From: Vandiemenella viatica
Taxonomy: Eukaryota > Arthropoda > Insecta > Orthoptera > Morabidae
DNA: 64,000 nt
NCBI GenBank assembly: GCA_031002005.1
Contig: JARYHS010008074.1
Location: forward strand, 178,956,494 to 179,020,493
Reading direction: 5' to 3'
The notes beneath the pieces are model-generated. The model was not told the DNA's origin. It saw only the letters and a program-made list of their open reading frames with translations, and searched no databases. This document shows, one piece after another, positions 8,258-42,315 of this stretch. Both the position numbers and the translations under genes were made by a program. Every line of letters starts with the position of its first letter. The first letter of the stretch is position 1.

Positions 8258-8960
8258 TGTAACGTAACCATGAACGTTACGGTTATATTTGGAGTGGATA
8301 GTGTAATCTGAGAGGTATGTAAGGTCTTTGGCGGTGGGCGAGCGCCGAGCGCGGTGAGTAGGGAGTCGGTGATTGTCAGTGGTAACGTACGGAACAGCCG
8401 GCGGGAGCGGAAGGTTTACGGCAGTGTGTTTATCCCGTGAATACATCGTACGGCCGCTTGGCGTGTGTTCCGTACTAAAGAACACTGTGGGATGTGTGCT
8501 AAAGTATATGTTGGACTATGAAGGTTCTTCCGAGAGACCTGATTCAATATAAACTGTGTTTAGTAAACTACTGCAGAATCGGACTATGGCGATTGTTTGT
8601 TAATTAGTTTCGAGAATTGTGCTCACTGCTTATTTAGTTGTTTTGACTGTACTTGAATCTGCTATCTTCGGTGACGAAGAAACATTAGTATTATTGTCTG
8701 GTGGCATGCTTGTGACTGTGTAGTCTCAGGGAATAAATTACGAAAACTAGTCGCATATGTGTTTTCCTTCTGTGACTTTAATTAACCAATTAGCATAGCC
8801 GAAAGACTGGCGACCGCACGGCAAAACGAACCTTTAATTAAAAGAGTAATTAGTGGTGGAAGAAAGCTTAAGAAAAATCGTGTTAGGAAGTGTAGCTGCT
8901 CAATTGCTTCAACGAACTTTTAACTATACAAACACGAATAGCGTGAGTAGCACCGTTACA
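8258..8960 (+). repeat. 5' LTR of element B
   Basis: 703 bp, starting TGTAACG and ending CGTTACA, followed at once by the primer site. The first 25 bp hold a 7-bp inverted repeat (GTAACGT and ACGTTAC, 8-nt loop). An AATAAA lies near 8732. Against the 3' LTR it differs by an extra 8 bp near 8360 and several 1-bp indels. Confidence 0.93.
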
Positions 8961-8981: not shown

Positions 8982-10164
8982 GTTGCAGTTAAAATTGTTA
9001 AGGACGGACAGTGATTAATATAAAAAAAAAGTGCTGGAAATAATAAGCAGTGAGTAGAGCGGGAAGACAACAATCGGCGATGGTACGGCTACTTCGAGGC
9101 GGCGAGTGCACAACAATGTAATAAACGAGAGGACCCGAGCTTTCACGATCGGAACCGAACAACGCAGTCTGACGGGAAGCCTCACCAGAGCAACAACTCG
9201 ACACCGGGGCAACGCGGTACAGCGGAGAGACGCGACAGCGGAACAACGCGGGCACGCAGAAGCGGCGCGGCGTCATTGCGGTCGACGGCAGCGCGGTCAG
9301 CAACTGAGATTCTTCGAAAGGGAAGTGCGAACAATTTTTTTTTAATTAAAGAAAGACACAAACTGACATTAAAATAAAAATATACCGTTTCGATTGGAAT
9401 CACATTTCCGCGGTAGTAATTATTTCTTTTGCATTAATGAATCTTCAAATGAGCTACTGACTATGCGGATTGCAAATTTTATGCATGCAAGCTTAATGTT
9501 ATTCTGATTTGGGGCAAGTTATGTCAGTTTCTGTTAACGAATTAATTTGTAGATTTTTTTGTTGATTTTCCAAAGAAGTGCAAGATTTATTTTTCTTTCT
9601 TTGTAAAAGCACAAACCGGCACGAATAATTCGCGATTTTTTTTAAGAAAAAATTAATTATTATTATTTTTGCATATTGAGTAACAGAGGTTTTTTTTTAC
9701 CTTTTCTTTCGTTAACTTATTAAAGTTGAAATGCCGGAGAACTGTGGTAGATTTGGCTTAGCAAATTATTTTTCAAGAAAAAAAAAAAAAAAAAAATTAT
9801 TTTATTTTGCTGTTAATTGGAATCGGAAAAAAAGGATATTTAATGTGGAAGTAATAACAAACCAGATATACGCCAGCTGTAGTTGAACGGGTTTGCTTCA
9901 AGAGTTTGATTTCATAGATAGAGATTTCTGTAGAGTTTCCGTAATTTTTTTGGTCATTGATAGTAGTGTATGTATTCAATTGAAGTGTATTTTATGACAT
10001 GGTGTATATCTTGTTTGGTAGTTAAGAGATTTGGAAACAGAATTTTACCTTTTTTTGTGCTAATGTATACTGGTGTATTCTGTTTGCTGGATTGACGGCG
10101 TTGGTTACTTCTTGTCTTTTCTACAACGGAAGATTGAATTTATTGTGTGAAATAATTTCGTAAT
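8982..10164 (+). other. untranslated leader of element B
   Basis: About 1.2 kb without a usable plus-strand frame. The first 350 bp are GC/CpG-rich and homologous to the leader of element A; the rest is AT-rich with A and T homopolymers (for example an A-run at about 9779-9797). Minus-strand open frames here (8998-9303, 9182-9403) reflect composition. Confidence 0.65.
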
Positions 10165-11055
10165 ATGGCATCTGAGGTAGAGGGTGGTGTGAATGGAGAG
10201 ATGGTGCGGGGAGGTGAGTCCCTTGGTGACGCACCCAGTGTAGGCATTAATCATTCCTCCCTTACTGTGTCTAATCATTTACAGTCGATGACGAGTTTTG
10301 CTAGTGAATCAGAAGTTGACAAGTCAAGAGAAGTGGTTAGGGAAAGTAATGAGGCGTCCATGTCGGAAATGTTTTGTGCTTTCCAGGGACAATTTGTCAT
10401 GTCAATTCAGTCCTTTCTGGAAGCTAAATTCAATGAAAACAAGATTTCACTTGAATCCAAATTAAATGAAAATAGTATTTCACTTGAATCCAAATTAAAT
10501 GAAAATAGTATTTCACTTGAATCCAAATTAAATGAAAATAGTATTTCACTTGAATCCAAATTAAATGAAAATAGTATTTCACTTGAATCCAGATTAAATG
10601 AATCACTGGAATCCAAATTAAATGAAAATAGTATTTCACTTGAATCCAGATTAAATGAATCACTTGAATCCAAATTAAATGAAAATAGTATTTCACTTGA
10701 ATCCAAATTAAATGAATCACTTGCATCCAAATTAAATGAAAATAGTATTTTGCTTGAATCTAAATTAAATGAAAATAAGGAGAGTATCGAATGTCTTCGG
10801 GATGCTTTTGAATCGCGACTAGGGCAGTTTAGGGAAGAATTGACACAATATAGGGAACTTTGTGCACAACAAACTGCTGAAATATCTTGTAAATTGACTC
10901 AGTATCGTTCAGACTGCGAACAAGTAACTAGTGTTTTGCACCAAAATATGGAATCCCTAAAGAAAACAGTCGAGCTTATAGAAGATAACCATGATGAAAG
11001 ACTGTCGAAGGTGGAGACTTTAGGAGAAACCCTTACCGAAAAATACACGGAGTAA
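10165..11055 (+). CDS. gag: Gag N-terminal part of element B, repeat-rich coiled coil
   Basis: A 296-residue frame starting MASEVEGG, parallel to MASESD in element A. Residues about 85-206 are a tandem array of 11-residue units (LESKLNENSIS) and 8-residue units (LESRLNES). Beyond it are further amphipathic segments typical of a Gag coiled coil. The frame ends in a stop at 11053-11055, but homologous sequence continues in another frame ('KEEVDHLTVGVEKL' from 11052), so the stop is probably caused by an indel just upstream. Family assignment rests on position between leader and capsid. It is likely the N-terminal (matrix-like or assembly) part. Confidence 0.7.
   Translation: MASEVEGGVNGEMVRGGESLGDAPSVGINHSSLTVSNHLQSMTSFASESEVDKSREVVRESNEASMSEMFCAFQGQFVMSIQSFLEAKFNENKISLESKLNENSISLESKLNENSISLESKLNENSISLESKLNENSISLESRLNESLESKLNENSISLESRLNESLESKLNENSISLESKLNESLASKLNENSILLESKLNENKESIECLRDAFESRLGQFREELTQYRELCAQQTAEISCKLTQYRSDCEQVTSVLHQNMESLKKTVELIEDNHDERLSKVETLGETLTEKYTE
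10417..10782 (+). repeat. in-frame 33/24-bp tandem repeat in gag
   Basis: Units start at about 10417, 10450, 10483, 10516, 10549, 10582, 10606, 10639, 10663, 10696, 10720 and 10753. Most are 33 bp; those at 10582, 10639 and 10696 are 24 bp (the 33-bp unit minus 9 bp). Differences between units are very few, so expansion is recent. All lengths are multiples of 3, which preserves the frame. It produces long low-complexity open frames on the opposite strand that are not genes. Confidence 0.93.
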
Positions 11056-14130: not shown

Positions 14131-14137
14131 GTGGGGG
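14130..14137 (+). promoter_or_regulatory. polypurine tract of element B
   Basis: The purine run GGTGGGGG ends directly at the TG start of the 3' LTR, the expected plus-strand priming site. The T interruption makes it imperfect. Confidence 0.65.
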
Positions 14138-14832
14138 TGTAACGTAACCATGAACGTTACGGTTATATTTGGAGTGGATAGTGTAATCTGAGAGGTATGT
14201 AAGGTCTTTGGCGGTGGGCGAGCGCCGAGCGGGGGAGTCGGTGATTGTCAGTGGTAACGTACGGAACAGCCGGCGGGAGCGGAAGGTTTACGGCAGTGTG
14301 TTTATCCCGTGAATACATCGTACGGCCGCTTGGCGTGTGTTCCGTACTAAAGAACACTGTGGGATGTGTGCTAAAGTATATGTTGGACTATGAAGGTTCT
14401 TCCGAGAGACCTGATTCAATATAAACTGTGTTTAGTAAACTACTGCAGAATCGGACTATGGCGATTGTTTGTTAATTAGTTTCGAGAATTGTGCTCACTG
14501 CTTATTTAGTCTGTTTTGACTGTACTTGAATCTGCTATCTTCGGTGACGAAGAAACATTAGTATTATTGTCTGGTGGCATGCTTGGACTGTGTAGTCTCA
14601 GAGGAATAAATCTACGAAAACTAGTACGCATATGTGTTTCCTTCTGTGACTTTAATTAACCAATTAGCATAGCCGAAAGACTGGCGACCGCACGGCAAAA
14701 CGAACCTTTAATTAAAAGAGTAATTAGTGGTGGAAGAAAGCTTAAGAAAAATCGTGTTAGGAAGTGTAGCTGCTCAATTGCTTCAACGAACTTTAACTAT
14801 ACAAACACGAATATCGGCGAGTAGCCGTTACA
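14138..14832 (+). repeat. 3' LTR of element B
   Basis: 695 bp, TGTAACG...CGTTACA, near identical to 8258-8960. Most differences are 1-bp indels plus an 8-bp deletion near 14231 and a small change at the 3' end (ATATCGGCGAGTAGCC against ATAGCGTGAGTAGCACC). Confidence 0.93.
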
Positions 14833-20011: not shown

Positions 20012-21011
20012 NNNNNNNNNNNNNNNNNNNNNNNNNNNNNNNNNNNNNNNNNNNNNNNNNNNNNNNNNNNNNNNNNNNNNNNNNNNNNNNNNNNNNNNNN
20101 NNNNNNNNNNNNNNNNNNNNNNNNNNNNNNNNNNNNNNNNNNNNNNNNNNNNNNNNNNNNNNNNNNNNNNNNNNNNNNNNNNNNNNNNNNNNNNNNNNNN
20201 NNNNNNNNNNNNNNNNNNNNNNNNNNNNNNNNNNNNNNNNNNNNNNNNNNNNNNNNNNNNNNNNNNNNNNNNNNNNNNNNNNNNNNNNNNNNNNNNNNNN
20301 NNNNNNNNNNNNNNNNNNNNNNNNNNNNNNNNNNNNNNNNNNNNNNNNNNNNNNNNNNNNNNNNNNNNNNNNNNNNNNNNNNNNNNNNNNNNNNNNNNNN
20401 NNNNNNNNNNNNNNNNNNNNNNNNNNNNNNNNNNNNNNNNNNNNNNNNNNNNNNNNNNNNNNNNNNNNNNNNNNNNNNNNNNNNNNNNNNNNNNNNNNNN
20501 NNNNNNNNNNNNNNNNNNNNNNNNNNNNNNNNNNNNNNNNNNNNNNNNNNNNNNNNNNNNNNNNNNNNNNNNNNNNNNNNNNNNNNNNNNNNNNNNNNNN
20601 NNNNNNNNNNNNNNNNNNNNNNNNNNNNNNNNNNNNNNNNNNNNNNNNNNNNNNNNNNNNNNNNNNNNNNNNNNNNNNNNNNNNNNNNNNNNNNNNNNNN
20701 NNNNNNNNNNNNNNNNNNNNNNNNNNNNNNNNNNNNNNNNNNNNNNNNNNNNNNNNNNNNNNNNNNNNNNNNNNNNNNNNNNNNNNNNNNNNNNNNNNNN
20801 NNNNNNNNNNNNNNNNNNNNNNNNNNNNNNNNNNNNNNNNNNNNNNNNNNNNNNNNNNNNNNNNNNNNNNNNNNNNNNNNNNNNNNNNNNNNNNNNNNNN
20901 NNNNNNNNNNNNNNNNNNNNNNNNNNNNNNNNNNNNNNNNNNNNNNNNNNNNNNNNNNNNNNNNNNNNNNNNNNNNNNNNNNNNNNNNNNNNNNNNNNNN
21001 NNNNNNNNNNN
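20012..21011. other. assembly gap, 1,000 N
   Basis: Exactly 1,000 N. The left arm of the large palindrome begins at the very next base. Confidence 0.99.
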
Positions 21012-24000
21012 TAATTGACCGCGAGCTCCCGCTATATTAATTAGAACGCTGGGCCGAGCGGATAATGGACGATCATTACGGCACCATAAAGCCGCGCGCT
21101 CATACTGACAGCCGCGAGTGAGTATCGGCTAGTGGGCTGTTGAGTAGGCAACCTCGCAACACACGGTAAAGGGTCTCCTTCGTGGGCAGGCAATCGTGCA
21201 TCACACGTAAGTTTCACTTCAGTACCAACGACTACCTGACAGTTCAGATCCAAACAGTGCAGAAATTTTCACAGGTTTGTAATCTCACTTCCACTTTCTA
21301 CGACTTTTGCATCGCGGAGGTGAAGAACCCCATAATAGATTTTACATTATACTTTGTACTTATTTTAGTCATGAATCAACATGAAAAGCTAAACCATATC
21401 AAAGTCTGAATGAGACGGTAAATTTAAAGACTGAACCAATTCATTGGAATTATTCAGTATTATTGATGTTGATTATGAATCAGCGTCCATGATAACTGAG
21501 TGTGTAAACTGTTTTGTGGAATTTATGATCAAGGTAGTAACAAACAGCGTGACAAGCGTGAACTTTACGGGAGTGCACATACGTCGATGTAAGGGATAAA
21601 CGAAGGGCTGTAAATGGTTTTCCAGGTTAGAGAAGTGATGCCTAAAGACTAGACCCAAAAACAGAATTGGCAACGCTTTTCGTGCAAGAAAGTCATAATA
21701 ATTTTCAATAGTTTTGTTCAAATTATGAGACATGAATATGGAAGAAATATGACATTTGTAAAATGATAAATGACAGTAAGAAACTTGCAGATCCCCTAAA
21801 GGAAGTTAGAATCTCTGCCTAGTGGAAAAAGTTACCTTCTTTAAAAACAGGCTGACGAAATTACAGATAAATTGCCTAGAAGTAAAAGTTTTCCAGTGGT
21901 AAAAAATTTAGGTGACGTATTTCTTTACGATATACAGACGATAAAAATTACGCTCTATAAATTGTGTGCTGCATCGTACACTGAAATTTGAAAAAAAAAA
22001 TCAAATTATGATTTAAGTTTCGTTTTTACAGAAGATACAGTGAAATGTAATCGTAGACACAAAAAAGAAATTTTCCTTTTACTGAAAGTCTCTTCCTGTA
22101 GTAAATGCCGCTTGTTGTAGATCTGAATATAGTATGATGGGTGTATCAGTTGTGGGCATAAGTGTTGTTTGCGGAAGGACAGCTCCTTATTCCCTCCCTA
22201 GGCATCAGCAGTTGAAAAGGGCGTGGTTCGATTAGTGCCACACACTGGCCATTTGTGGCCTCTTCTTCGCTCATGAATAATAAGTGATTTTGGGGTAGTA
22301 GAACCACTTTGAGATTTCAAATTCGACGGAAAGCCTTATGAATCCTCGGGTATTGAACCTGATAATAAAGTCAGCAATCAGTTGATATACAGCCGTTCCG
22401 ACACAAGGTTCGCACTGTCGAAATGTTATGAAAAGTCAGAAAAGTCCAAAATCAACTGTCTGCCAGCTTCATGTTAGGAACGTAACTTACTGCGACGGCA
22501 GTGAGTTATTTAATGAGGTTTTATATAAGGCTTTGAAATTTCTGAAAGCCGCAGGTTTATTTATTTACCTGGAAGGACTACACCAAAAATGAAGGCTTTG
22601 TTAATATTAACTGGTAGACGTGTGGACAATGGTATCTATTAATCATATTCATCGATTTTTTTTCTTAAAAAAAGAAAAAAAATATATTTCATCCTTTTCT
22701 TGGTAACGTCACTTTTATGTTCCCGTAAACCTATCTTCATCACTTTCTAACAAGTTAGGTTGTTTAGACACATTAAATTTTATTGCATTTGGCATAGAAA
22801 TTTAATCTTTCTATAGCACAACCAAGCGATATAAAAATCATTTGCATACTTTTTAAAGTGTTAATAAATATACTCCAAAGCAATTTCCTGCACTCAAAAC
22901 CAACGTTCGAAGTTCCGTGATTGATGCATCACAGCTTTCAACGAAATAAATTCAACTTCCTTCTGACAGGAATATATGTGTTTGTTAGTAAAATAGGGTA
23001 GCCTCTAAAGATGAGAAATGGAAGCATATTCTCGCAGCAAATCCGTTACACAAGGGCAGTCTAAAATCATCTTTGCCTGTACCGCAGGCTATGCTAGTAA
23101 AGAAACTGATGAGTACACGGAACTTGACTGAAACATTTTGCAGTGCCCTCAAAACAATTCCTTTGTTCTTTTATTTCCAGGATATCTCAAACGACCCACA
23201 TTAGAAGAAACTACTTCTCTAATAGAAGTAAATTATCAATATTGCTTTACGCAGTTCGTCTTTTGATGGATTTTGCATTGGGATGAAAATTTACGAAAAA
23301 TTGAAAGAGCAACTTTCTTGATGCTTGTTTGAATGTTCAGCAAAACTAATATCAAGAAATACGAAACACTACAATATGAAGGTTCATTCGCTTCATAACC
23401 TCGATTGTTTCACTGTAGGACACTAGAAGATAACATGGATTTTTTTAAAAAAATTTTGACTGAAAAAATTTTTGACACTGTCTTTTGAAGATTAAGTGAG
23501 ATGAAATTCCTTGCTTAATTTCAAGTTGCCGTTGCCGCATTGTGTTCTTTTTAATATCGAATCGTCATGGATTTCGTTTCCCAGTATAATAAAAATTAAT
23601 CTAATTTCGAAGTCAATTAAACAGAATGAATCATATCCAGAGATTTATTACACATCATTTTTAAAATTAATTATTGACCTGAGGGGTATTAAACATTGCT
23701 CATCATAATACTAGTTCATCGGGAAACTGAAGTATGTGGTCCGTACAGAATGGAACGGAAGATCAGAAACGATATATAAGAAATGGGTTCAAATAGAAAG
23801 GGGTAGGATTTAATTGCTATGATGATTTAATAGATATAGAATTTAAATGGCAAGCGCCAACATGTTGACGTAAATGATATAGCTAAGTTACGTGTAGTAA
23901 ACGCTTTCGTTTGACACTTCCTATCATATATCGTCACAATAAATATCAGCAGTATACTCTGGCTCAGTAAACGCGTTGAGCATTCTTTTGTGGGGGGAAA

Positions 24001-25715
24001 GTAGAACATGACGCGTTTCCTCTTTCTATCTTCCGCTCTCTCTTCATTGTTGCCAACTTTTCAACAGGGTAACTGTTGCTCGTTAAAAATAATGAATGAA
24101 TTAACCAGCAGCATCTGTAGTAATCCGAAACGTGTTCTAATTATTCACCATTAAAAGTCCAAACAAAGTGAGTTTGTCAGGAGACCAATATAACAAGTTA
24201 CAGTCGGGGTTTAATAACAAAAGAAATGATGCATGCTACAAACTCGTAAACTATAATGAGCTGAATATTGACGTCTGTCCTCACTTTCAAAGAGAAGATT
24301 AAAAACACGTAATCCTTTTAAAAAATATCACATCTCTTCTTTTATAATTTTTATACATTTAAAACCATTTTGGTGGCCGAGATTCACACAATTAATCTCA
24401 ATCAGCCATATTTATAGTTGTTTTTAATTGTGGCTGAAGGCGTAGACGAAGCAGCGATAGGAACATTAAGTGAAAAGTGAGAGCAGGTTTCGAAATTTCC
24501 GTTTCACAATAGGAGACCAGGTGTTCCTACAGCAAAGGAACCCAATTTTTTCTTATTCTAAACTAATCCTCAACATATTCATATTATAACTAACTAATAT
24601 CTGAATTAGTGAATTCTGTTTACATCCAGGTTATTTTAAATTAGTTTGTTTCCACATTTTCATATCATTTTGTATAAAATCAAAATTTCATGAAATCTCA
24701 TTAAAACTTGAATAACGCAGTAAATACAATACTAATAATAAATAGACAACATTGGACTAAATTCAAAACTACACATTTTATTGCGATCTATTAATTACTG
24801 AAACATTCTTTATAAATAAAGCAGTTACTTTGACTTCTGTGAGACGACTAATTTTCATTGATTTCATTGTTGAATTACTTTCCAATCTTACTGCTTTCGC
24901 AAAACAATACTCTTACAATGGCTTTAGGATCTCTAAAATTGGTGTTGTTCTTGTATGTACCACTGTTATAATTCACTAGAAGTGTGTTTCATTGCTTTTC
25001 CAACAGTTACTGGACAGCAGTGATTTAAAAATCTTTATACTACAGAAAAAATGTCACGCAATCTGAAATGCAGCTATCAATGAATTTGAACACAGTCCTC
25101 TAAACATTTAGTGATGATATAAAAAATTTATTTACCTAAATTCTTCAAGTGTTGTTAGAAAGTATTATACTGAATTCTATAAACTCTGTAAAGAATTTGC
25201 CAACTTCTTATGAAGACATATTTTTTGTTCTCTGCTGTATCGATTTACATACATCTCTGCCATGATTTTCGCTAATCTTACGGATCTATACGAAACGAAT
25301 AACATTTAAGACTATTAAATCTTTTCACATTGCACATTACTAAGTCAAATTTTACAAGTTGTTATAATTAAAAAATATTTCAAACAAAACAGAAAATTGG
25401 ATGTACCCATTTCTAGATTAATTTTTAAACTGTATACATTCTCTTAGATGTTTAACATTCCTATCTACTCAGTCAGTACGAAAAATAAACGTAATTAAAC
25501 GCACCATCACTATCATTTACGAAAGTGTTGTGATTGTATGTTAGCTAAATAGCTACTTCCCACTCTCAGAAAACGTGAAAAAAATTAAACATGCGTCTGT
25601 CAAACATCCGTAGAATATTCGTATCTCTACAGTGTAATGTGGATTAGTCACCAGGAAATCTGCTATATATTTCACTCAATTTCTGATTAACCGGAAGAAA
25701 GAATGGTTAAAATGA

Positions 25716-25932
25716 CGCCGAGCATGGTGGATGAGCGATAACGCTCTGGCCTCGCATTCCGGAGAACGTGCCAAGCAGATTTGGGTTTTCCGTGATTTCC
25801 TTAAGTTGCTCGAGAAGAATTCTGGGATGGTTCCTTAAATGGCCATGACTGAGTACCTTCACGTTCCTTGCCTCCATACCTTTCCAACCTCTCATGACCT
25901 CGACGTCGACGATGCGTAAAAACAGAAAAAAA
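25716..25932 (+). repeat. tRNA-derived SINE, left palindrome arm
   Basis: It begins 'GCCGAGCATGGTGGATGAGC' and continues through 'CGCTCTGGCCTCGCATTC', 'TTGGGTTTTCCGTG' and 'CTTTCCAACCTCTCATGACC' to an A-rich end. The B box is degraded, because the GGTTCGAAT segment found in other copies is replaced. The SINE inserted before the duplication, since the same copy is mirrored at 28993-29209. Confidence 0.8.
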
Positions 25933-27240
25933 TGACTAAAATAGCAGTAATAGCTCCATTATGTCTACTCGTAACTTCTTCTAAATAAAGTGTAACTTCA
26001 ACCTTGTTTTTCTAGAGAACACAATATAGCAGTTTCGTTCAGACAATAATGACGACACGGAAATGGCGTTGATGAGTCATGTCCGAAGTGATTTCACTTC
26101 GTGCCGCAGCGTGCGTGCCAGTTGTCCCGAACATGATGTTTGAGAGGTTTTGCGTAATCACCGAAACGTATAAATACCCCAATCTGCATTTTAAATATAT
26201 AAGTTTCGAACAAGAGTAGCAAAATACAAATTAGTTTAAGACTATTCTGTTGGTATACAGATTTCAGATTGGTTATTATGCATTTAATTGTCCTCACTTA
26301 GTTCAGACTATGGCAGGAGCTTAAATTACTAAAAATAAATACAGTTGTCACTAGACGTGTAATGGAACAGCCATCCTGCATCTGTCACTTTTTTAGTTAC
26401 AAGTGATTCGATGTCTTCTATATTAAACAACTCCTAATTCGGAATAGAAATTTACGTGAAGTATTCTATCGATGATTTGTTTATTGCCTAAGACTCTGAG
26501 ACCGTTCAGTCGAAATGGAAATTAAGGTCTGATAAAATATGGATTGGCAAATTTTACTCCGTGACTTTGATCTAGTCTAGAGAAGGATACCTATCCCAGT
26601 AAAAAAAACTTCCGTACATTGCTCGGCAATAAGAGTCGTTATAATTTACGTCGATTTGAAAAGCGAAGACTGAAACCATTTGGAAAATGTGTCAACCATT
26701 TATTTCAATCCATCTACCTGTAATTAGAACAAAAATGTGTATTTTTTAGTTACGTTTATTTAACAGTTAGTGAAAAGATTACTTCTGCGTGTTCTGTTAG
26801 TGAGCAAGGAAGACTATTTTGATCTAATGGAAGGTTGTTAATGAAGGCGATGCTTATGAAATTAGCTGCGTAAGTAAGATTGTGTATTGCTTGTAACATT
26901 GCAATTACAATTTTGCCATATAACATACAAAGAGCAATGGGAAATGTTATCACTTTTCTCCTATTCTATTTATCGTTGGATGTTTCTTAGCTTGAGAATT
27001 GTGAAAAATCTTTTAACACTATAATGTAATTGTTGATGTTCAGATACAGTGCGTCACATTTCACGATCGCATTTTAACTATTCAATTTAACTTCGGTTCC
27101 TAAAATGAGACGAATTTTGCACTAACCGATGAAAGAGGATAACGACGTTCATACTCGTAACATTAGAGATAACTCTTGTTACCTTTTTCTGAAAACTCTC
27201 GCAGTTCTTATAGATACGAAATAATTTCCATAAAATCTTA

Positions 27241-27453
27241 ATTTCGGAGCTGCGTCTAAAATATACATTCAGATGCAATGTAGTCTTCACGGGTGTGCAG
27301 GCGGATGGTGTTTTGAAAACACAACGTTTCGACAACCAGCTCGGCAGTCTTCATCAGGTGTCCGGTGTCTACAGGCTGACGAAAGCTGGCAGTCACCACG
27401 TAGACTGGCTTAGCCTCCCAGACAGACCTCCTAATATACCTGTCGGCGTGGCG
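27241..27453 (-). repeat. ribozyme-like repeat, left copy at palindrome centre
   Basis: Minus-strand copy of the short repeat described at 27475-27670. It carries CTGATGA (plus 27351-27357 reversed) and CGAAACGTTGTG at the same 30-nt spacing. A single T-for-A change relative to the right copy breaks one pair of the putative stem. Confidence 0.7.
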
Positions 27454-27474
27454 TGGCAATCAGAGCGGGTCTTC

Positions 27475-27670
27475 CGCCACGCCGACAGGTATATTATGTC
27501 TGTCTGGGAGGCTAAGCCAGTCTACGCGGTGACTGCCAGCTTTCGTCAGCCTGTAGACACCGGACACCTGATGAAGACAGCCGAGCTGGTTGTCGAAACG
27601 TTGTGTTTTCAAAACACCATCCGGCTGCACACCCGTGAAGACTACATTGCATCTGAATGTATATTTTAGA
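27475..27670 (+). repeat. ribozyme-like repeat, right copy at palindrome centre
   Basis: The segment holds CTGATGA (27568-27574), a 7-bp stem GACAGCC/GGTTGTC (27576-27582 and 27588-27594, loop GAGCT) and GAAA (27595-27598), the layout of a hammerhead core around stem II. A hairpin-forming GTGTTTTCAAAACAC follows. Similar segments occur at 45576, 52854 (minus) and 52941. It is also an open frame ('LMKTAELVVETLCFQNTIRL'), so conservation may be of protein or RNA. Known Penelope-like elements carry hammerhead motifs in their terminal repeats; affiliation here is inference. Confidence 0.55.
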
Positions 27671-28992
27671 CGCAGCTCCGAAATTAAGATTTTATGGAAA
27701 TTATTTCGTATCTATAAGAACTGCGAGAGTTTTCAGAAAAAGGTAACAAGAGTTATCTCTAATGTTACGAGTATGAACGTCGTTATCCTCTTTCATCGGT
27801 TAGTGCAAAATTCGTCTCATTTTAGGAACCGAAGTTAAATTGAATAGTTAAAATGCGATCGTGAAATGTGACGCACTGTATCTGAACATCAACAATTACA
27901 TTATAGTGTTAAAAGATTTTTCACAATTCTCAAGCTAAGAAACATCCAACGATAAATAGAATAGGAGAAAAGTGATAACATTTCCCATTGCTCTTTGTAT
28001 GTTATATGGCAAAATTGTAATTGCAATGTTACAAGCAATACACAATCTTACTTACGCAGCTAATTTCATAAGCATCGCCTTCATTAACAACCTTCCATTA
28101 GATCAAAATAGTCTTCCTTGCTCACTAACAGAACACGCAGAAGTAATCTTTTCACTAACTGTTAAATAAACGTAACTAAAAAATACACATTTTTGTTCTA
28201 ATTACAGGTAGATGGATTGAAATAAATGGTTGACACATTTTCCAAATGGTTTCAGTCTTCGCTTTTCAAATCGACGTAAATTATAACGACTCTTATTGCC
28301 GAGCAATGTACGGAAGTTTTTTTTACTGGGATAGGTATCCTTCTCTAGACTAGATCAAAGTCACGGAGTAAAATTTGCCAATCCATATTTTATCAGACCT
28401 TAATTTCCATTTCGACTGAACGGTCTCAGAGTCTTAGGCAATAAACAAATCATCGATAGAATACTTCACGTAAATTTCTATTCCGAATTAGGAGTTGTTT
28501 AATATAGAAGACATCGAATCACTTGTAACTAAAAAAGTGACAGATGCAGGATGGCTGTTCCATTACACGTCTAGTGACAACTGTATTTATTTTTAGTAAT
28601 TTAAGCTCCTGCCATAGTCTGAACTAAGTGAGGACAATTAAATGCATAATAACCAATCTGAAATCTGTATACCAACAGAATAGTCTTAAACTAATTTGTA
28701 TTTTGCTACTCTTGTTCGAAACTTATATATTTAAAATGCAGATTGGGGTATTTATACGTTTCGGTGATTACGCAAAACCTCTCAAACATCATGTTCGGGA
28801 CAACTGGCACGCACGCTGCGGCACGAAGTGAAATCACTTCGGACATGACTCATCAACGCCATTTCCGTGTCGTCATTATTGTCTGAACGAAACTGCTATA
28901 TTGTGTTCTCTAGAAAAACAAGGTTGAAGTTACACTTTATTTAGAAGAAGTTACGAGTAGACATAATGGGAGCTATTACTGCTATTTTAGTC

Positions 28993-29209
28993 ATTTTTTC
29001 TGTTTTTACGCATCGTCGACGTCGAGGTCATGAGAGGTTGGAAAGGTATGGAGGCAAGGAACGTGAAGGTACTCAGTCATGGCCATTTAAGGAACCATCC
29101 CAGAATTCTTCTCGAGCAACTTAAGGAAATCACGGAAAACCCAAATCTGCTTGGCACGTTCTCCGGAATGCGAGGCCAGAGCGTTATCGCTCATCCACCA
29201 TGCTCGGCG
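28993..29209 (-). repeat. tRNA-derived SINE, right palindrome arm
   Basis: Mirror of 25716-25932, near identical to it. See that entry for structure. Confidence 0.8.
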
Positions 29210-32200
29210 TCATTTTAACCATTCTTTCTTCCGGTTAATCAGAAATTGAGTGAAATATATAGCAGATTTCCTGGTGACTAATCCACATTACACTGTAGAG
29301 ATACGAATATTCTACGGATGTTTGACAGACGCATGTTTAATTTTTTTTCACGTTTTCTGAGAGTGGGAAGTAGCTATTTAGCTAACATACAATCACAACA
29401 CTTTCGTAAATGATAGTGATGGTGCGTTTAATTACGTTTATTTTTCGTACTGACTGAGTAGATAGGAATGTTAAACATCTAAGAGTATGTATAGAGTTTA
29501 AAATTAATCTAGAAATGGGTACATCCAATTTTCTGTTTTGTTTGAAATAGTTTTAATTATAACAACTTGTAAAATTTGACTAGTAATGTGCAATGTGAAA
29601 TGATTTAATAGTCTTAAATGTTATTCGTTTCGTATAGATCCGTAAGATTAGCGAAAATCATGGCAGAGATGTATGTAAACGATACAGCAGAGAACAAAAA
29701 ATATGCTCTTCATAAGAAGTTGGCAAATTCTTTACAGAGTTTATAGAATTCAGTATAATACTTTCTAACAACACTTGAAGGATTTAGGTAAATAAAATTT
29801 TTAGTGTCATCACTAAACGTTTTAGAAGACTGTTTTCAAATTCATTGATAGCTGCATTTCAGATTGCGTGACATTTATTCTGTAGTATAAAGATTTTTAA
29901 TTCACTGATGTCCAGTCACTGTTGGAAAAGCAATGAAACACACTTCTAGTGAATTATAACAATGGTACATACAAGAAACAACACCAATTTTAGAGATCCT
30001 AAAGCCAATGTAAGAGTATTGTTTTGCGAAAGCAGTAAGATTGGAAAGTAATTCAACAATGAAATCAATGAAAATTGGTCGTCTCACAGAAGTCAAAGTA
30101 ACTGCTTTATGTATAAAGAATGTTTCAGTAATTAACAGAACGTACTAAAATTTGTAGTTTTGAATTTAGTCCAATGTTGTCTATTTATTATTAGTATTGT
30201 ATTTACTGCGTTATTCAAGTTTTAATGAGATTTCATGAAATTTTGATTTTATACAAAATGATATGAAAATGTGGAAACAAACTAATTTAAAATAACCTGG
30301 ATGTAAACAGAATCCACTAATTCAGATTTTTTCAGATATTAGTTAGTTATATTATGAATATGTTGAGGATTAGTTTAGAATAAGAAAAATTTGGGTTCCT
30401 TTGCTGTAGGAACACCTGGCCGCCTATTGTGAAACGGAAATTTCGAAACTGCTCTCACTTTTCACTTAATGTTCCTATCGCTACTTCGTCTACGTTCTCA
30501 GCCACAATTAAAAACAACTATAAATATGCTGATGAGATTAAGTGTGTGAATCTCGGCCACCAAAATGGTTTAAATGTATAAAAATTATAAAAAGAAGAGA
30601 TGTGATATTTTTTAAAAGGATTACGTGTTTTTAATCTTCTCTTTGAAAGTGAGGACAGACGTCAATATTCAGCTCATTATAGTTTACGAATTTGTAGCAC
30701 GCATCAGTCTTTTGTTATTAAACCCCGACTGTAACTTTGTTATATTGGTCTCCTGACAAACTCACTTTGTTTGGACTTTTAATGGTGAATAATTAGAACA
30801 CGTTTCGGATTACTACAGATGCTGCTGGTTAATTCATTCATTATTTTTAACGAGCAACAGTTACCTGTTGAAAAGTTGGCAACAATGAAGAGAGAGCGGA
30901 AGAGAGAAAGAGGAAACGCGTCATGTTCTACTTTCCCCCCCACAAAAGAATGCTCAACGCGTTTACTGAGCCAGAGTATACTGCTGATATTTATGTGACG
31001 ATATATGATAGGAAGTGTCAAACGAAAGCGTTTACTACACGTAACTTAGCTATATCATTTACGTCAACTGTTGGCGCTTGCCATTTAAATTTTATATCTA
31101 TTAAATCATCATAGCTATTAAATCCTACCCCTTTCTATTTGAACCCATTTCTTATATATCGTTTCTGATCTTCCGTTGCATTCTGTACGGACCACATACT
31201 TCTGTTTACCGATGAACTAGTATTAAGATGAACAATGTTTAATACCCCTCAGGTCAATAATTAATTTTAAAAATGATGTGTGATAAATCTCTGGATATGA
31301 TTCATTCTGTTTACTTGACCTTAGAAATTAGATTAATTTTATTATACTGGGAAACGAAATCCATGACGATTCGATTTTAAAAAGGAACACGATGCGGCAA
31401 CGGCAACTTGAAATAAGCAAGGAATTTCATCTCACTTAAATCTTCAAAAGACAGTGTCAAAAATTTTTTCAGTCAAAATTTTTTTAAAAAAAAAATCCAT
31501 GTTATCTTCTAGTGTCCTACAGTGAAACAATCGAGGTTATGAAGCGAATGAACCTTCATATTGTAGTGTTTCGTATTTCTTGATATTAGTTTTGCTGAAC
31601 ATTCAAACAAGCATAAGAAAGTTGCTCTTTCAATTTTTCGTAAATTTTCATCCCAATGCAAAATCCATCAAAAGACGAACTGCGTAAAGCAATATTGATA
31701 ATTTACTTCTATTAGAGAAGTAGTTTCTTCTAATGTGGGTCGTTTGAGATATCCTGGAAATAAAAGAACAAAGGAATTGTTTTGAGGGCACTGCAAAATG
31801 TTTCAGTCAAGTTCCGTGTACTCATCAGTTTCTTTACTAGCATAGCCTGCGGTACAGGCAAAGATGATTTTAGACTGCCCTTGTGTAACGGATTTGCTGC
31901 GAGAATATGCTTCCATTTCTCATCTTTAGAGGCTACCCTATTTTACTAACAAACACATATATTCCTGTCAGAAGGAAGTTGAATTTATTTCGTTGAAAGC
32001 TGTGATGCATCAATCACGGAACTTGTAACGTTGGTTTTGAGTGCAGGAAATTGCTTTGGAGTATATTTATTAACACTTTAAAAAGTATGCAAATGATTTT
32101 TATATCGCTTGGTTGTGCTATAGAAAGATTAAATTTCTATGCCAAATGCAATAAAATTTAATGTGTCTAAACAACCTAACTTGTTAGAAAGTGATGAAGA

Positions 32201-33923
32201 TAGGTTTACGGGAACATAAAAGTGACGTTACCAAGAAAAGGATGAAATATATTTTTTTCTTTTTTTTTAAGAAAAAAAATCGATGAATATGATTAATAGA
32301 TACCATTGTCCACACGTCTACCAGTTAATATTAACAAAGCCTTCATTTTTGGTGTAGTCCTTCCAGGTAAATAAATAAACCTGCGGCTTTCAGAAATTTC
32401 AAAGCCTTATATAAAACCTCATTAAATAACTCACTGCCGTCGCAGTAAGTTACGTTCCTAACATGAAGCTGGCAGACAGTTGATTTTGGACTTTTCTGAC
32501 TTTTCATAACATTTCGACAGTGCGAACCTTGTGTCGGAACGGCTGTATATCAACTGATTGCTGACTTTATTATCAGGTTCAATACCCGAGGATTCATAAG
32601 GCTTTCCGTCGAATTTGAAATCTCAAAGTGGTTCTACTACCCCAAAATCACTTATTATTCATGAGCGAAGAAGAGGCCACAAATGGCCAGTGTGTGGCAC
32701 TAATCGAACCACGCCCTTTTCAACTGCTGATGCCTAGGGAGGGAATAAGGAGCTGTCCTTCCGCAAACAACACTTATGCCCACAACTGATACACCCATCA
32801 TACTATATTCAGATCTACAACAAGCGGCATTTACTACAGGAAGAGACTTTCAGTAAAAGGAAAATTTCTTTTTTGTGTCTACGATTACATTTCACTGTAT
32901 CTTCTGTAAAAACGAAACTTAAATCATAATTTGATTTTTTTTTTCAAATTTCAGTGTACGATGCAGCACACAATTTATAGAGCGTAATTTTTATCGTCTG
33001 TATATCGTAAAGAAATACGTCACCTAAATTTTTTACCACTGGAAAACTTTTACTTCTAGGCAATTTATCTGTAATTTCGTCAGCCTGTTTTTAAAGAAGG
33101 TAACTTTTTCCACTAGGCAGAGATTCTAACTTCCTTTAGGGGATCTGCAAGTTTCTTACTGTCATTTATCATTTTACAAATGTCATATTTCTTCCATATT
33201 CATGTCTCATAATTTGAACAAAACTATTGAAAATTATTATGACTTTCTTGCACGAAAAGCGTTGCCAATTCTGTTTTTGGGTCTAGTCTTTAGGCATCAC
33301 TTCTCTAACCTGGAAAACCATTTACAGCCCTTCGTTTATCCCTTACATCGACGTATGTGCACTCCCGTAAAGTTCACGCTTGTCACGCTGTTTGTTACTA
33401 CCTTGATCATAAATTCCACAAAACAGTTTACACACTCAGTTATCATGGACGCTGATTCATAATCAACATCAATAATACTGAATAATTCCAATGAATTGGT
33501 TCAGTCTTTAAATTTACCGTCTCATTCAGACTTTGAGATGGTTTAGCTTTTCATGTTGATTCATGACTAAAATAAGTACAAAGTATAATGTAAAATCTAT
33601 TATGGGGTTCTTCACCTCCGCGATGCAAAAGTCGTAGAAAGTGGAAGTGAGATTACAAACCTGTGAAAATTTCTGCACTGTTTGGATCTGAACTGTCAGG
33701 TAGTCGTTGGTACTGAAGTGAAACTTACGTGTGATGCACGATTGCCTGCCCACGAAGGAGACCCTTTACCGTGTGTTGCGAGGTTGCCTACTCAACAGCC
33801 CACTAGCCGATACTCACTCGCGGCTGTCAGTATGAGCGCGCGGCTTTATGGTGCCGTAATGATCGTCCATTATCCGCTCGGCCCAGCGTTCTAATTAATA
33901 TAGCGGGAGCTCGCGGTCAATTA

Positions 33924-36267
33924 CAACACATTAGCATTAGCAGGCAAAGAGTCACGCACTCGCTAGCACTAGGTGATGAGGACACTTCTAATCACCGATT
34001 CTATTGAGTCTTCCATAACGTTTTTACTCACTGACTTTTACCTTTAGAATCTCTTCACAGAACATACAGCTAATTATTAACTGAAATTTTGCTTCAGTCT
34101 ACACAACGCCTCCTCACCCACTGCCCATGCTCACATTTATGAATTTCGTATTAAGTCCTACCTTTCGAATATTGTTTATCAACCTGAATTCCTTTCGAAT
34201 AAAAAAAGTTATGGATCACAGATTTAAATAAATAACTAATACTGTATTTAAAAGAAGTAATTCAGACCTTACTCCAACATTATTGACGTAATCTTCGCAA
34301 TTGCTTGAATCGAGTAAAGTAAAATAGAATAGATTACGATTTATATAGTTGGATGAATGAAAGATATTATTTTTTATGTAGGTGTTACGTAGGAGATTGT
34401 AGGAATTGTGAAGGATTTTTTTATTTTTTTATAAAAAAACCCGTGAGACATTTTGTAATTTGGCTAGGATATTACCCCAAAATAACTTCAGAATGCATGA
34501 AAGAATCGAATTAACGAAATAAGAAACAAAAGTCAGAGGTTTTTACCATCGGAACAAAATAATATGAAAAAAGCTTTGTACATATACTTCCACAACATTT
34601 TTACGAGTGAAAGAATTAGAAATTTAGTATAGCAAGTTAATAATTTAACCGAAATTAACGATACAATTAGCTACCGTTTAATTTTTTTAACTTCTAAAAT
34701 TCTGATAGTTCAAACATACGAATTCAAGCAGAACAAAATGATAAATATAATCATAAATAGTTCTGATAGATTAAGAAAATAATTTTCCTCTAATATTCCT
34801 ACAACTTGTTCAACCTACTAGGGTACAAAAAAGCAAAAACTAAAGTTTAAGTATATTTTCTACCTTTTCACTATAACGTAATACAAATATGAGTTGAATT
34901 ATTAATTTAACCGTTATGAGAAAATCCATGTTTAAATTGAAGTTTCCAGCCATGGGGTCTTTTATTAGAATACTCCTTTCAATGTTAAACACCAACAATG
35001 AAGGCTTAAAACATAGGATGATTAGTATCATACTAAGAATAGTTCACCCATTTATTGATCCACTTGTTACCTAGTTATCAAAGATATCTGCGTAACTAAA
35101 GTACAATTTTCGTTTCATAGTTTTAACATCCTACCAATAAATTATATTCCAGTAAAAACAACTAATTGAACTAGAATCTACGAAGTCCTAGATACCTTAG
35201 TCTAACACTCAGAGTTTTTTTTATTAAGGCTTAACTATTGTCGTCATTTAGGCAATTACATTGAGACTCGACTGAGAGGAAGAAACGGGAAAAAAGGCAA
35301 ATTGAACCATACCGCTATTTACTTTTGGCTGGTTTGAAGAAATGATGGAAAATCTAAATTCGATCTGGCCATAACGGAAATAGAACAATTTTGCTCCGGA
35401 ATGCGAGGATGGGACTATACAGCTATCCAACAGTCTCTGTCTACAGTCCGAGCTTAAGCAGTGTGCAGTAAGTTATTTAATAACACATCAAAAATGATAC
35501 ATTTTGAACATTTCACGACATTTTTTATTTGGTTTACAGTCAACTTGCATTACAATCTCCAGAAAATACATTCACAGGTAAACCTTCTATCTACGTATCA
35601 TCATTAGCTAGTTTAGAGAGAACATTAAAATTTACTATTTATCATTTAACATACTGCGTGTAACATTTCTTAGAGATTAAAATTAGTAATTTATCAAGGG
35701 ACGGATTTAGTTTCGGCAAGAAATGGTTCGTAGTCATCCTACGCATGGTCTACATAGAGTGCGATTCCTAGACAAATAGAGTTTGGTTATAAGATGTAGT
35801 TATTTGTCTGTACATACTTCAATCACAGATCATACGAGAGTACTGGTATTTAATGCTATATTCACAAATAACCTAACATTTCAACAACTGTCTTCATGGT
35901 TTATTAGATTTGTGCTTTACAGGATAGAAATCATTACTGTATGTGGTTACATTTCAAAAGACTAAGTTTTACAAGAATATATTTGAAGATGATATTTACG
36001 ACGCTTATACGGAAAAATAAAATAATTTGAATATTTTCGTGTTGATGGATCAGTTCCTATTAACGCAAAAATGAATTGAGATGTGGAACGTGCTTACTTA
36101 ATATTCATGGAAATATAGTATCCACTGCAGAAATACTGTCAACTAGTCTGCTGTTTGAGACCGGCCACGGATATGGTGTTTTACTTACGTATTTCGTCAT
36201 TATATGATGTCCGTACAATATTGGCGCTAACTCTTGACACATCAGATGCAGGTAGCTATAAAAATAC
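33924..36267. other. intergenic, no gene recognised
   Basis: AT-rich sequence beyond the right palindrome arm. Only short, featureless frames. Confidence 0.6.
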
Positions 36268-36625
36268 GAAGAGTAATTGGCAATTCTTAGAACAGCCCAC
36301 CAGAAAACTAGACTTGACCACATAAAGAATGATGAGATTAGATTTAACCTAAAGCTAAGGGAATCCATGGAAGAGAGACTTAGGTCATCAAAACTTCGGT
36401 GGTTTGGGCATGTCAAGAGAATGACTAGTATAAGACTACCAAAAACTTATTTGGAACAAAAGGATAGTGGGCAAAAGACCAGTGGAAAGACCAAGAAGAA
36501 AATGGACAGATCAACTGAAGGAGGACGTAGAGAGAAGAGGCTGGAATTGTGAATATATCATGGACAGAGAACTTTTCTGGATAGGAGGCAGTGGAAAACG
36601 ATCGTCTATAACAGCCAAGGCACGT
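36268..36625 (+). pseudogene. 3' end of a LINE reverse transcriptase ORF, frameshifted
   Basis: The frame from about 36277 reads 'KTRLDHIKNDEIR', 'SMEERLRSSKLRWFGHVKRM' and then shifts near 36463 into a second frame with 'GKRPVERPRRKWTDQLKEDV' and 'RRGWNCEYIMDRELFW'. This SKLRWFGHVxRM ... RPRxxWxDxLKED pattern is the familiar C-terminus of insect non-LTR retrotransposon polyproteins. Upstream reverse transcriptase is absent, as expected from 5' truncation. It is a different lineage from the LINE at 39966-42315. Confidence 0.8.
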
Positions 36626-39192
36626 AAATCATACCCGGGAAACTGGAGATGGTCCCCGTCGACAAATGAATTTGCAATCCTAGCATTCAGTTACACCAAG
36701 TTGATATTAATTCCTATGTTTCGTTTTGGTACTGCACAATGTTATTAAACTGAACAGTTCCCCGTCATGTTTGGCAGCCTACTGTAAAAGGCTTTGACTG
36801 GCATTGCTAGACAATGATTAACACCTGACAAACATTGTATTGCATAAATGCAAACGTAAGAAACCATGGAAGGTACATTTGATTTCTTTCATTTTTTGAC
36901 GTGGAGGGGGTGCTGAAAATAGTTTTACTGTATTGAAATACAAACCATATTATGGAAAGAAAATCATTGGCATGTATTTGTGAAGCTTGTATCATAGTAA
37001 CATTTGTAGATTCACTTCGTTTGGAGAATAAGCAGTTATTTAAGAAAAGTTGAAGAATATACACAAAAGTAATAGCTATACATAATTGAACGCAGGCTTG
37101 GCTGGCAGGCATTCTTGACTTGTGTTCCACGATTGGTACAGGAGCGATGCTTGCCGTTAGTAGGAATGTGCCAGAGATGGTTACTTCTATTAATCTAATC
37201 TCGTTTAAAAATCATTTTGGTGTCAAATTTTCCTGCGCTGTTGGTGAGGGACTTTTAGTGTGCGAGTACAGACCTACTCGTATATCACAATACACTGCCG
37301 AGATCTATACAGTCTCGTCGCTACATTCGTTCCTCCCTTATTGCATTGACGCTGAAAGTGAAATTCCATGCCTTTTACTCTCATTTTTACTAAAAAATGT
37401 TTTCATAGTCTCTGTTAACAGAATAAAAGAAAAATCCATAAGGTAATAATCACTTCATAATCTAAAAAAATATCTAAAATTATCGGGCAATACTGAGCAT
37501 GGTTTTCTATGTCACAATTTTATACACAATTTTACATAATAAATGCAAACCAACTGTAATATCATCAGCGCTGCAGTCACCTCGGTTACCTTTAACCACA
37601 TTTGATACGGATAGCAAAATCTACTATCGGAAAATGAATGAGAACACTTGTTAAACTACAATTCTTTAGATTGATTCATAGTATTCTGTTGCTAACGCGT
37701 TTCAGTTGTCTGAACTAAATGAAATTATTATCCACTCTCTCAGAAATTTCAAATAAAATTTGCTAATCCTTTTTAATAACTTGAGGAATTACTCGTCGAA
37801 TTGTGGAAATTCATAGTGCTACAGAAGAATTTTTAACAGACCAATAAACAACAAAATCCAATAAGATGAGGAGTATTGAGAAAACAGTGTTAAATGTTAC
37901 GTCATAATAAGGTTCAAGCAGAAAATTGTTATAGATACCTCAGATGTTTCTAATCTCGCAAATATGAATAGAAATCTGTTTTATAATGCTCTATGCTATA
38001 TTATTGCACAAAAAAGTCATTCCCATATCTGTCTTCTGTTTCTGAAATCATGTTGTGGCATCTACTTTTTTTGAGTCTTATCGATTTAGGGTGATGGAGA
38101 AGTAAATGTTTACAGTAACTGAGGATTGTGTGGCGACAAAGCAGTTTCATGATGTTTATTTTTACATGTATATTCCGCCAACACGGACGTGAAAGGTGCA
38201 TCAAAACTTTGTGAGTTCAGTTTGTTACCGTCATTGTGGCTTTTGCTGCTATTCGAAGTGAAATTCCGCGGTGGCACAACTTTGACATTACTCGTTCGTG
38301 AAGTGCTTTTATATTTGTAAAATAAACAAGCTTTCCTACGAAGAGCGAAACTCTTCAGTCGAAAGAGGGCTTTAGCGTTCCTCCCACGTAGGATAGGTGA
38401 CGAAAAAATGTTTTGCAGCCTCATGCACTTACCTATGCTTCCAAGAATATTGGTTTTCAGTGGCAGGTTAGAAACATTATAGTCACCCAGAAATGAGAGT
38501 GATAAAATGTTTGTAGCCATCTGGTTTAGCGAATGTGGAGTCATCGAGGATAAGAAATTATTATATACATTATTTATAAGTAATATACTACTACGTATTT
38601 TCTCCAAGTTCTATCTATTAACACATCTAAGACGTTGTACTTTTGCATTTATTTATATTTATTTAATTTTGATAAGACGCTGTTTCATGCATTTACATAA
38701 ATTTCTACACTTATAGGCCTAAATACAAATTCAACGATTCTTCGCCAGTTACTTAATAGGATTTCACTTAATTCCTTTCTTATTTCTATTAGCCTCGTAA
38801 ATGAAAATAAATAAAAAAATAAAAATAAAAAAACTATGAGAATCACTGGTGGCAAAAGACGAACACTATGCTGTAAGCCCACAACAATAAAATTAGCATG
38901 ATTAATAAAAAAGTGAAACAGCATGTTTCACATGATATTAAAATGCATTTCCTCTAATACGGTACCAAGATATTATCTTTCTAGTGTTGCCGGAGCGGAA
39001 ATAGAATTTTTGGGATAAATAAGATGCAGTTAAAATATGTTTACAGTAATATTTAATAGGGCATCAAATGGATGAAAATAAAAATCTTGTTTTTGCTGAT
39101 ATTCCATGAAACTTCGAGATATTTATGGGAATTACCAGATTTAGTTAATCATAAATGGAAATTATCTAAAATACAAAAATCAATAGTATAGC
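36626..39192. other. intergenic; unassigned 165-codon frame at 38110-38607 (minus)
   Basis: Mostly AT-rich. The minus-strand frame 38110-38607 is the longest uninterrupted frame outside repeats, but it shows no domain, no codon bias I can judge and no neighbour that supports it. A frame at 37120-37446 is equally featureless. Confidence 0.5.
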
Positions 39193-39965: not shown

Positions 39966-42315
39966 ATTTGAAGAATTTTTTATGTTCTTCTTCTTAATCT
40001 ACGATAGTCAATCTCGGGATTGGTCTGCGGCGGTCTCCCATTCAGCTATACTCTCTGCCCTCTTCTTCATATCTACATATCTCATGTAGCCAACATCTTC
40101 CATTATCTGCTGGATGTATTTTAAACGTGGTATTCCTCGATATCTCTTTCCTTCTACCATTCCCTCCCTTATTGTTTTTAGTAAGCTCTCATGTCTTAAG
40201 ATAAGTCCAATTAATATTGTCTTCCGCGTTTTTATACTCTTCCATATTGAGTTATACTCTCCTGCCTTCTCAAAAATTCCCTCATTAGTAACCATGTCCC
40301 TCCAGCTAATCTTTAACATCCTTCTGTAGTACCACTGCTCAAACGAAATTAACTTTTTTTTTATCTATTTAACGTCTCTCAAACAGCGAGGTCTTTAGAG
40401 ACGGGAAAGGATAGGAGACAAGGAATGGGAAGGAATTCGGCCATGGCCTTTTGAAGGAAGCATCCCGGCATTTGCCTGGAGTGATTTGGGAAACCATGGA
40501 AAACCCAAATCTGGATGCCCGGACGGGGATTCGAACCATCGTCCTCCCGAATGCGAGGCCAGAACGCTAGCCGTTACACACCACGCTCGGTACGAAATTA
40601 ACCTTCTTTTCTCTTCTGTACAAACTGTCCAGGTATAACATCCATACAGGAAAATACTCCAGACATAAACTTTTAATAGCCTTTTCCTCGTTGTCCAGCT
40701 GATGTTATTTGTTGTAAAAATTCGTCGTTGAACGCTATTTTTGCTTGTGCAATCCTGCATTTCATATCATTCTTGCTTCTTCCATCTTTTGTGATTTTGC
40801 TTCCTAGGTAGCAGCATTCTTGTATCTCCTCCAGCGTTTCTCAATTAATTTTAATTTTTTATTTTAACTTTACCACATACCATGACTTTCGTCTTCGCTT
40901 TATTAATTTTCATATTGTACTTATTACCCATTGTTTCCTCCATTCTTTCCAAAATTTTCTTAAGATCCTCTTCACTTTCTGTTACTATCACAATGTCATC
41001 TGCGAATCGAACCATATTGACTAGTTTTCTCTGTATCTTTATCCCATCATCGATTTCGTTTCTGATCTTTTCCAGTGAGTCTTGAATATAGGCATTGGAA
41101 ATTAAGGCAGACTGGGAACAGTCTTGTCTGACTCCGTTGCGTATTGCTGCTTCCTCTTCTTCATTTACAATTTTCGTTTTTGTAAAGATACCATATTAGC
41201 CCCCTCTATATTGTATACCTATTTTTCTGAGGACCTTGAACATCTTCTCCCATTTAACATTATCAAATGCTTTTTCAATATCTACGGAACCTTAATTCGT
41301 ATTTTGGCCTTTCTCTATCCTCTTTTCTAATATTAGCCTCAGTGCAAGAATTGCTTCCCTTGTACCTCTCCTCTTCCTGAAACCGAAATGATCTTCTGTT
41401 AGAAATTCTTCTACTTGTTTTTCCATACGCTGTACCACTACATTGATGATAATTTTTTATGCATGAGCTACTAAGCTTATTGTTCGTACTGCACACATTT
41501 TTTAGCATCTAGCTTATTTAGTAAGGGAATAATTACATTTTTTCTCAAAGTCTGAGGCTATTTTTCCTTCCTTAACAATCTTTCTTTCATTACAGTACCA
41601 CATTTTTTCAAGAGTTCCGCTTTCAGATTATCGATACCCATGCCTTATTATTCTTTAATCTCCCTAGCGCCATATAAAATTCCTCTCTTAATATAGTGTA
41701 TACTTTATTTTCTTCTTCAACTTCATTCCACTCTTTCTAAAATCATATTTTCATCTAATTTTGTATCCTTGTACAGGTTTTCTTTGTGTTGCTTCCACCT
41801 TTTCACAATTTCACTATGATCGCTAAGGATGTTACCACTTGCATCGTTTATTGCATTACCTTTGCTACATCGCTTACCAAAGAAAGTTTAGCAATTTTAT
41901 ATGCAGATTCAATATTGCCATTCCGTATTTTTTCTTCTATTTTGGAGTAAATACTGTTATAGTAATTTTCTCTTGCAACTCTTGCTCCTTTGTTAATACC
42001 ATTTGTCAATGATCTATATTTCTTCTTATGCATTTCATCTCTTGATCCCTTTAGCAGTCTTCTCTCTCTCCATATATTAAATATTTCCTTGGTAATCCAT
42101 TCCTTTCTTAGTGCAATTTCTTTTTTTACTAAAATTCCATCAGCAGCCTCCGTCAAGTCCTGCTTAATGCGAGTCTCTCTGTTGGTATAGCTTAACAGTA
42201 TTTTCATCCTTAAAATTTTCTATTTGCCACTTGCTGGTAATAGTACTTTCAACAGCTTCTTGAACTTTAGTATTTACTAAAAATCTTGTGCTAGCCTTGT
42301 TAAGGAACTCAAATC
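39966..42315 (-). pseudogene. 5'-truncated LINE reverse transcriptase pseudogene
   Basis: On the minus strand, reading from 42315 downward: pre-RT region ('EIALRKEWITKEIFNIWRER' near 42110), RT fingers/palm ('HFGFRKRRGT' near 41380; 'DIEKAFDNVKWEKMFK' near 41270), the catalytic 'VRFADDIVIVTESEEDLKK' box (near 41000), 'YLGSKITKDGRSKN' (near 40790), and a C-terminal part 'RRMLKISWRDMVTNEGIFEK' to 'RGIPRLKYIQQIMEDVG' (40320-40090). Several frameshifts and stops separate the pieces. The endonuclease domain is missing. The motif set fits the RTE/jockey-like non-LTR elements of arthropods; I do not fix the clade. A SINE interrupts it at 40354-40591. Confidence 0.88.
40354..40591 (-). repeat. tRNA-derived SINE inserted in the LINE, 11-bp target duplication
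   Basis: Same family as 39193-39437: head 'ACCGAGCGTGGTGTGTAACG', B box GGTTCGAATCC, body, short poly(A) (T-run at 40354 on plus). Perfect target duplication ACGAAATTAAC at 40343-40353 and 40592-40602. Removing the SINE and one duplicate restores contiguous LINE coding sequence, so the insertion is younger than the LINE. Confidence 0.93.

Follow-up and report, generated by a model that had tools for sequence, protein, structure and literature searches.

The window analyzed here comprises 64,000 nucleotides of the genome of the orthopteran Vandiemenella viatica (G000:C4537:178956494-179020493; assembly of 3.72 Gb with 8965 contigs) and contains a large palindrome at positions 21012 to 33923. 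Self-BLAST aligned this region with its own reverse complement at 98.318% identity over 12958 columns (126 mismatches and 73 gap openings, each difference being counted twice), leaving a non-pairing center of 21 bp at approximately 27454-27474. The 6-kb inverted match between the two arms lies far beyond what chance would be expected to produce. Both the palindrome and its 21-bp spacer had been reported in a preliminary description of the stretch and are borne out here. Further analysis revealed two features that go beyond that description: the left arm begins at a contig end, and the axis is occupied by what appears to be a Penelope-like element (PLE). The palindrome is present in the sequence, and its meaning is probably technical. 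We consider it most likely (at a probability of roughly 85%) that it represents a fold-back of the contig end through the PLE hairpin, which would have arisen in the library, in a read or in the assembler.

Three gaps of 1000 N lie inside the window (2641-3640, 20012-21011, and 59179-60178), and the contig with the palindrome spans the interval between the last two (21012-59178). The left arm (21012-27271, minus strand) repeats the flank at 27654-33923 as its reverse complement. It opens with the first contig base, directly after the second gap, which is flush with its outer end, and it is mirrored up to that base. The contig end thus cuts the palindrome off. The right arm (27654-33923, plus strand) passes at position 33924 into sequence without a mirror, which makes up the remaining contig (33924-59178, plus strand), and is judged to be the genuine copy. 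Between the arms lie two inverted terminal repeats of the PLE (pLTRs), both outward-reading: a left pLTR (27272-27453, minus strand) and a right pLTR (27475-27653, plus strand). They are separated by the non-palindromic center of the element (27454-27474), and similar centers occur in other genomic copies.

The axis of about 380 bp (approximately 27272-27653) is a dispersed repeat. We found at least 52 element matches in the assembly in one search (50 to the repeat part only) and at least 94 in another; both searches scored the best 40 candidates and the counts are lower bounds. Thirty loci (L013-L042) were compared, 20 of them with flanks of about 5 kb and 10, taken from the best matches, with flanks of about 40 bp. 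The element unit is an inverted pair of outward-reading pLTRs of about 180 bp, starting the frame MKTAELVVETLCFQNTIRLHTREDYIA (from position 27571 in the right pLTR), and an inverted self-match is found at the element in 13 of the 20 loci with long flanks. The start of the frame falls within a motif CTGATGA...GAAAC that begins at 27568, which resembles the core motif of a hammerhead ribozyme; a search of the element against Rfam found no hammerhead match, even at an E-value of 10. A longer copy (L026), which also carries the tail described below, matches the GIY-YIG domain (PF01541) with an E-value of 1.7e-4 and 22.2 bits, slightly below the curated cut-off (22.6 bits). Its frame has 104 homologues, some of which are named GIY-YIG by their sources. 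The organism is named for nine of these, eight being from termites and cockroaches and one from a coral, which gives no more than a hint of an insect with affinity to the former groups.

With its inverted pLTRs, tail, target-site duplications (TSDs) and GIY-YIG match, the central repeat fits a Penelope-like element. PLEs are described as having inverted pLTRs and an optional tail (PMC3846280, PMC11167929). Their pLTRs are often arranged head to head, and the tail, where present, measures about 30-40 bp and sits on one pLTR. The present family resembles them in the head-to-head pLTRs of about 180 bp, the tail of about 31 bp, the TSDs of 8-14 bp, and the GIY-YIG match in a related copy. Unlike the elements described there, the window copy has no tail, no TSD and only one flank. 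Assembly difficulties have been reported for the PLEs Pen3 and Pen4, whose tandem and inverted repeats initially left one copy only fully assembled (PMC3846280).

The other loci indicate what the window copy lacks. The tail (GTGTGCGTGGAGACTTTCC...) adjoins a pLTR in 29 of the 30 loci, the exception being L027; in 28 of the 30 it belongs to the matched copy, and in L029 to a second copy. Exact TSDs of 8-14 bp were found in 18 of the 22 insertions with both ends called. The others have TSDs of 6 bp (L018 and L021) or 4 bp (L023 and L024), the last two being near-copies of one locus with the right end miscalled inside the element. As a control, each left flank was paired with right flanks taken from different copies, which yielded at least 8 bp in two of 462 pairings. 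At the window copy the tail was not found, its single chance-level match lying far off at position 6549 (0.33 expected), nor was a TSD, the longest direct match being 4 bp. Both ends of the window copy enter identical flank, mirrored exactly from the edge of the element (35 of 35 bases). None of the 20 PLE loci with long flanks is mirrored beyond the element, the 13 with an inverted self-match being the fair comparison, and the outer 35 bases are unmirrored in all 10 short loci (6-13 of 35 identical). Because the tail and the TSD are missing and the flank is mirrored, the window locus shows the features expected of an ordinary insertion in which one half has been replaced by the mirror of the other.

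Two further points were considered here. Insertion of a PLE into the center of an older palindrome was rejected, as the mirror holds exactly up to each edge of the element and there is no TSD. The loop sequence was uninformative as a clue to the lost side, since among the other copies either side of the loop may be the truncated one.

The 20 kb flanking the window to the left and to the right were examined as well, giving 104 kb in total with four gaps. Two of the four gaps are followed by contig starts with a duplicate close by, in inverted orientation at 21012 and in direct orientation at 82609; the gap at 59179-60178, located between those two, precedes a contig start without a nearby duplicate. 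The second duplication lies outside the window, where 82609-83703 (L046:8609-9703) is a direct near-copy of about 1.1 kb of 78339-79400 (L046:4339-5400), the two being separated by 2.2 kb and the gap 81609-82608. Its first approximately 400 bases are a dispersed repeat, the differences in the part outside transposable elements are allele-like, and full matches are found only at its two places (among the best 40 of 5273 candidates). This contig start lies 48 kb from the palindrome.

The arms of the palindrome were compared with the central repeat left out, over 6241 aligned bases, and differ by 48 substitutions (18 transitions) and 35 indels (31 of 1 bp, the longest of 10 bp). The patchy divergence with indels of up to about 10 bp that had been described earlier is confirmed: a patch at approximately 23.3-25.96 kb (23300-25960, with its mirror at about 29.0-31.6 kb) holds 46 of the 48 substitutions (17 transitions and 29 transversions) and 32 of the 35 indels, while the outer and inner arm segments are nearly identical. 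The 1-bp indels are balanced across the arms (17 vs. 14). The yardstick for these differences was a single locus, the 660 bases of the duplicate at 82609 outside transposable elements, with 21 substitutions (13 transitions and 8 transversions) and three indels. Relative to this yardstick, the number of indels per substitution is higher in the arms (Fisher P 0.013) and the share of transitions is weakly lower (P 0.069); their 17 transitions among 46 substitutions fit the one third expected from random changes (P 0.64). Elsewhere in the window, the two long terminal repeats of a retrotransposon (8256-8960 and 14136-14832) differ by no substitutions and 12 indels, suggestive of consensus errors of the indel type in this assembly. 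Being rich in indels and transversions, the arm differences resemble errors of the consensus more closely than divergence by evolution, a conclusion that is argued, not proven, from a single-locus yardstick.

These differences bear on one of the two readings put forward in the preliminary description, a stable ampliconic palindrome of the kind found on sex chromosomes, with arms homogenised by gene conversion. The near-identity of the outer and inner segments around a diverged middle would suit such a palindrome. The spectrum of the differences, with 17 transitions to 29 transversions and 32 indels to 46 substitutions, is not that of natural divergence, and the axis is a retroelement that misses half of its structure. 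As to gene content, the arm frames outside the element are at most 110 aa long from stop to stop and have no Pfam match, although the arms may hold small exons. A single pair of arms exists in the assembly among the candidates scored. We found no support for the gene-conversion palindrome and regard it as very improbable, whereas the other reading, a join made in assembly, is favored by the gap-flush arm and the half-missing PLE.

The copy number of the arms was assessed segment by segment. The left-arm segments 21012-23450 and 23450-25500 each matched only the two arms in the assembly (two of two candidates scored). The segment 25480-27272 matched the two arms and a dispersed repeat of about 225 bp at 72-81% identity (best 40 of 3907 candidates), and no second full copy of 33900-38000 was found among the best 40 of 2702 candidates. 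A large palindromic mobile element inserted at this site could account for long inverted arms that flank a transposon-like core. Copies of the arms elsewhere were not found among the scored candidates, only the central 380 bp or so is repeated, and the mirror begins exactly at the edges of the PLE, which makes such an element the least probable of the explanations weighed here.

The favored fold-back would have proceeded as follows. The true locus would read lost flank Y, TSD, tail, pLTR, inverted pLTR and flank X, the last corresponding to 27654-33923 and onward. The two pLTRs form a near-perfect palindrome of about 380 bp, which overlaps its own reverse complement. For this reason, a contig arriving from X into the pLTR palindrome could be joined outward to X again and not to Y. 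It would then follow X in reverse for 6.26 kb and stop, producing the contig end and the gap. This reading is preferred because the left arm is flush with a gap, because the PLE at the axis has no tail, no TSD and no second flank, and because another duplicated contig start lies nearby. We infer that the join has a technical origin and did not arise in the animal. The extra arm may come from the other allele or be a poor consensus of the same one, and we lean to error. The head-to-head joining of two haplotypes, as had been proposed, thus survives as one version of the join, with a same-allele fold-back at least as likely given the error-like spectrum of the arms.

Comparable artefacts are known. 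Fold-back reads left in the data can cause tangles in assembly graphs, and such reads amount to 0.55-0.6% in nanopore DNA, with virtually none in PacBio HiFi (PMC12870357). The window palindrome is similar to the fold-back artefact reads described there and to the palindromes formed during whole-genome amplification (PMC6218980) in being palindromic with almost no spacer; the mirror and the minimal spacer were both read here from assembled sequence alone. It is unlike fold-back artefact reads in that its axis is a natural inverted-repeat element, which makes a confusion of overlaps by the assembler as likely as a chimeric read. There is also a resemblance to false duplications, which may be heterotype or homotype and for which a gap between the copies is listed as a mark, as are half or very low read depth and, in the heterotype, heterozygous k-mers (PMC9516828): a redundant copy of an otherwise single sequence is located at a scaffold gap, and the duplicate at 82609 indeed has a gap between its copies. 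As an artefact, the locus would be a cautionary case of how the hairpin-shaped ends of retroelements can fold a contig back, and the absence of TSD and tail at an axis would provide a signature by which such joins could be flagged from the sequence, without reads.

Several observations weigh against a contig-end fold-back. The tail is optional in the PLEs of PMC11167929 and PMC3846280, so that its absence alone is weak proof and the argument is carried by the mirrored flank and the lost TSD. Self-BLAST showed no mirror at the other five gap-bounded contig ends in the window, which means that fold-back events are not usual. In contrast to the false duplications described in PMC9516828, the arms are inverted and contiguous, and the gap lies at the outer end and not between the copies; the palindrome is for that reason filed as a fold-back and not as a side-by-side false duplication. 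A length difference of 10 bp between the arms is atypical of consensus error, and the pLTR arms retain four substitutions and a 3-bp indel next to a 1.3-kb stretch that is free of substitutions. Finally, a fold-back in vivo at the PLE hairpin would give an identical anatomy.

This last point leads to the main rival explanation, in which the PLE nucleated an inverted duplication that is real. If the DNA broke, or a fork stalled, next to the pLTR palindrome, a strand could fold back, prime itself and copy X in reverse; the flank on the tail side would be lost, and a second switch inside the gap would restore the continuity of the chromosome. Priming of this kind would leave the PLE exactly at the axis, without tail, TSD and one flank, and in yeast mutants a break near inverted repeats is reported to drive inverted duplications (PMC10622511). 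The window resembles the duplications of that study in having its axis at a pre-existing inverted repeat and its distal side lost, and differs from them in that no second junction is seen and that our knowledge of it comes from the assembly sequence. The outer end of the palindrome is the contig end, which leaves such a junction out of view. Moreover, the analyzed sae2-delta clones described in PMC10622511 all corrected their inverted-repeat mismatches, whereas the pLTR mismatches persist here. The arm differences are error-like, although a very recent event would also be without evolved divergence, and the other PLE loci with long flanks are unmirrored (0 of 20). We therefore consider a duplication in the animal unlikely. 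On this reading, a head-to-head PLE would have acted as a hairpin in the living animal, seeding an inverted duplication 12.9 kb or more in length and erasing its own tail, TSD and distal flank; if true, PLEs with inverted pLTRs would be natural seeds of giant palindromes.

Other repeats and inverted structures were observed in the course of the analysis. The PLE loci L023 (C7730:133578920-133588910) and L024 (C7730:133487300-133497290) are near-copies in opposite orientation, about 92 kb apart, with approximately 96% identity over 7.1 kb and 90% over a further 1.1 kb and with the PLE insertion common to both. They appear to be another inverted duplication, real or false. In the left flank of the window, locus L043 holds an inverted pair of about 887 bp with 99.8% identity (window coordinates -19999 to -19113 and -17275 to -16390) that touches the edge of the examined stretch. 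Within the window, an open frame at 10156-11055 encodes tandem SLESKLNENSI-like units (repeats at 10417-10777) and lies upstream of a weak match to a Ty3-type capsid, below its cut-off. A fragment of a reverse transcriptase frame is present on the minus strand at 40851-41195 (RVT_1, E-value 2.7e-16). Finally, the contigs C4537, C7, C8, and C7729 are of almost equal size, between 388,957,591 and 388,957,675 bases, which gives the impression that chromosomes of greater length were cut at a set size.

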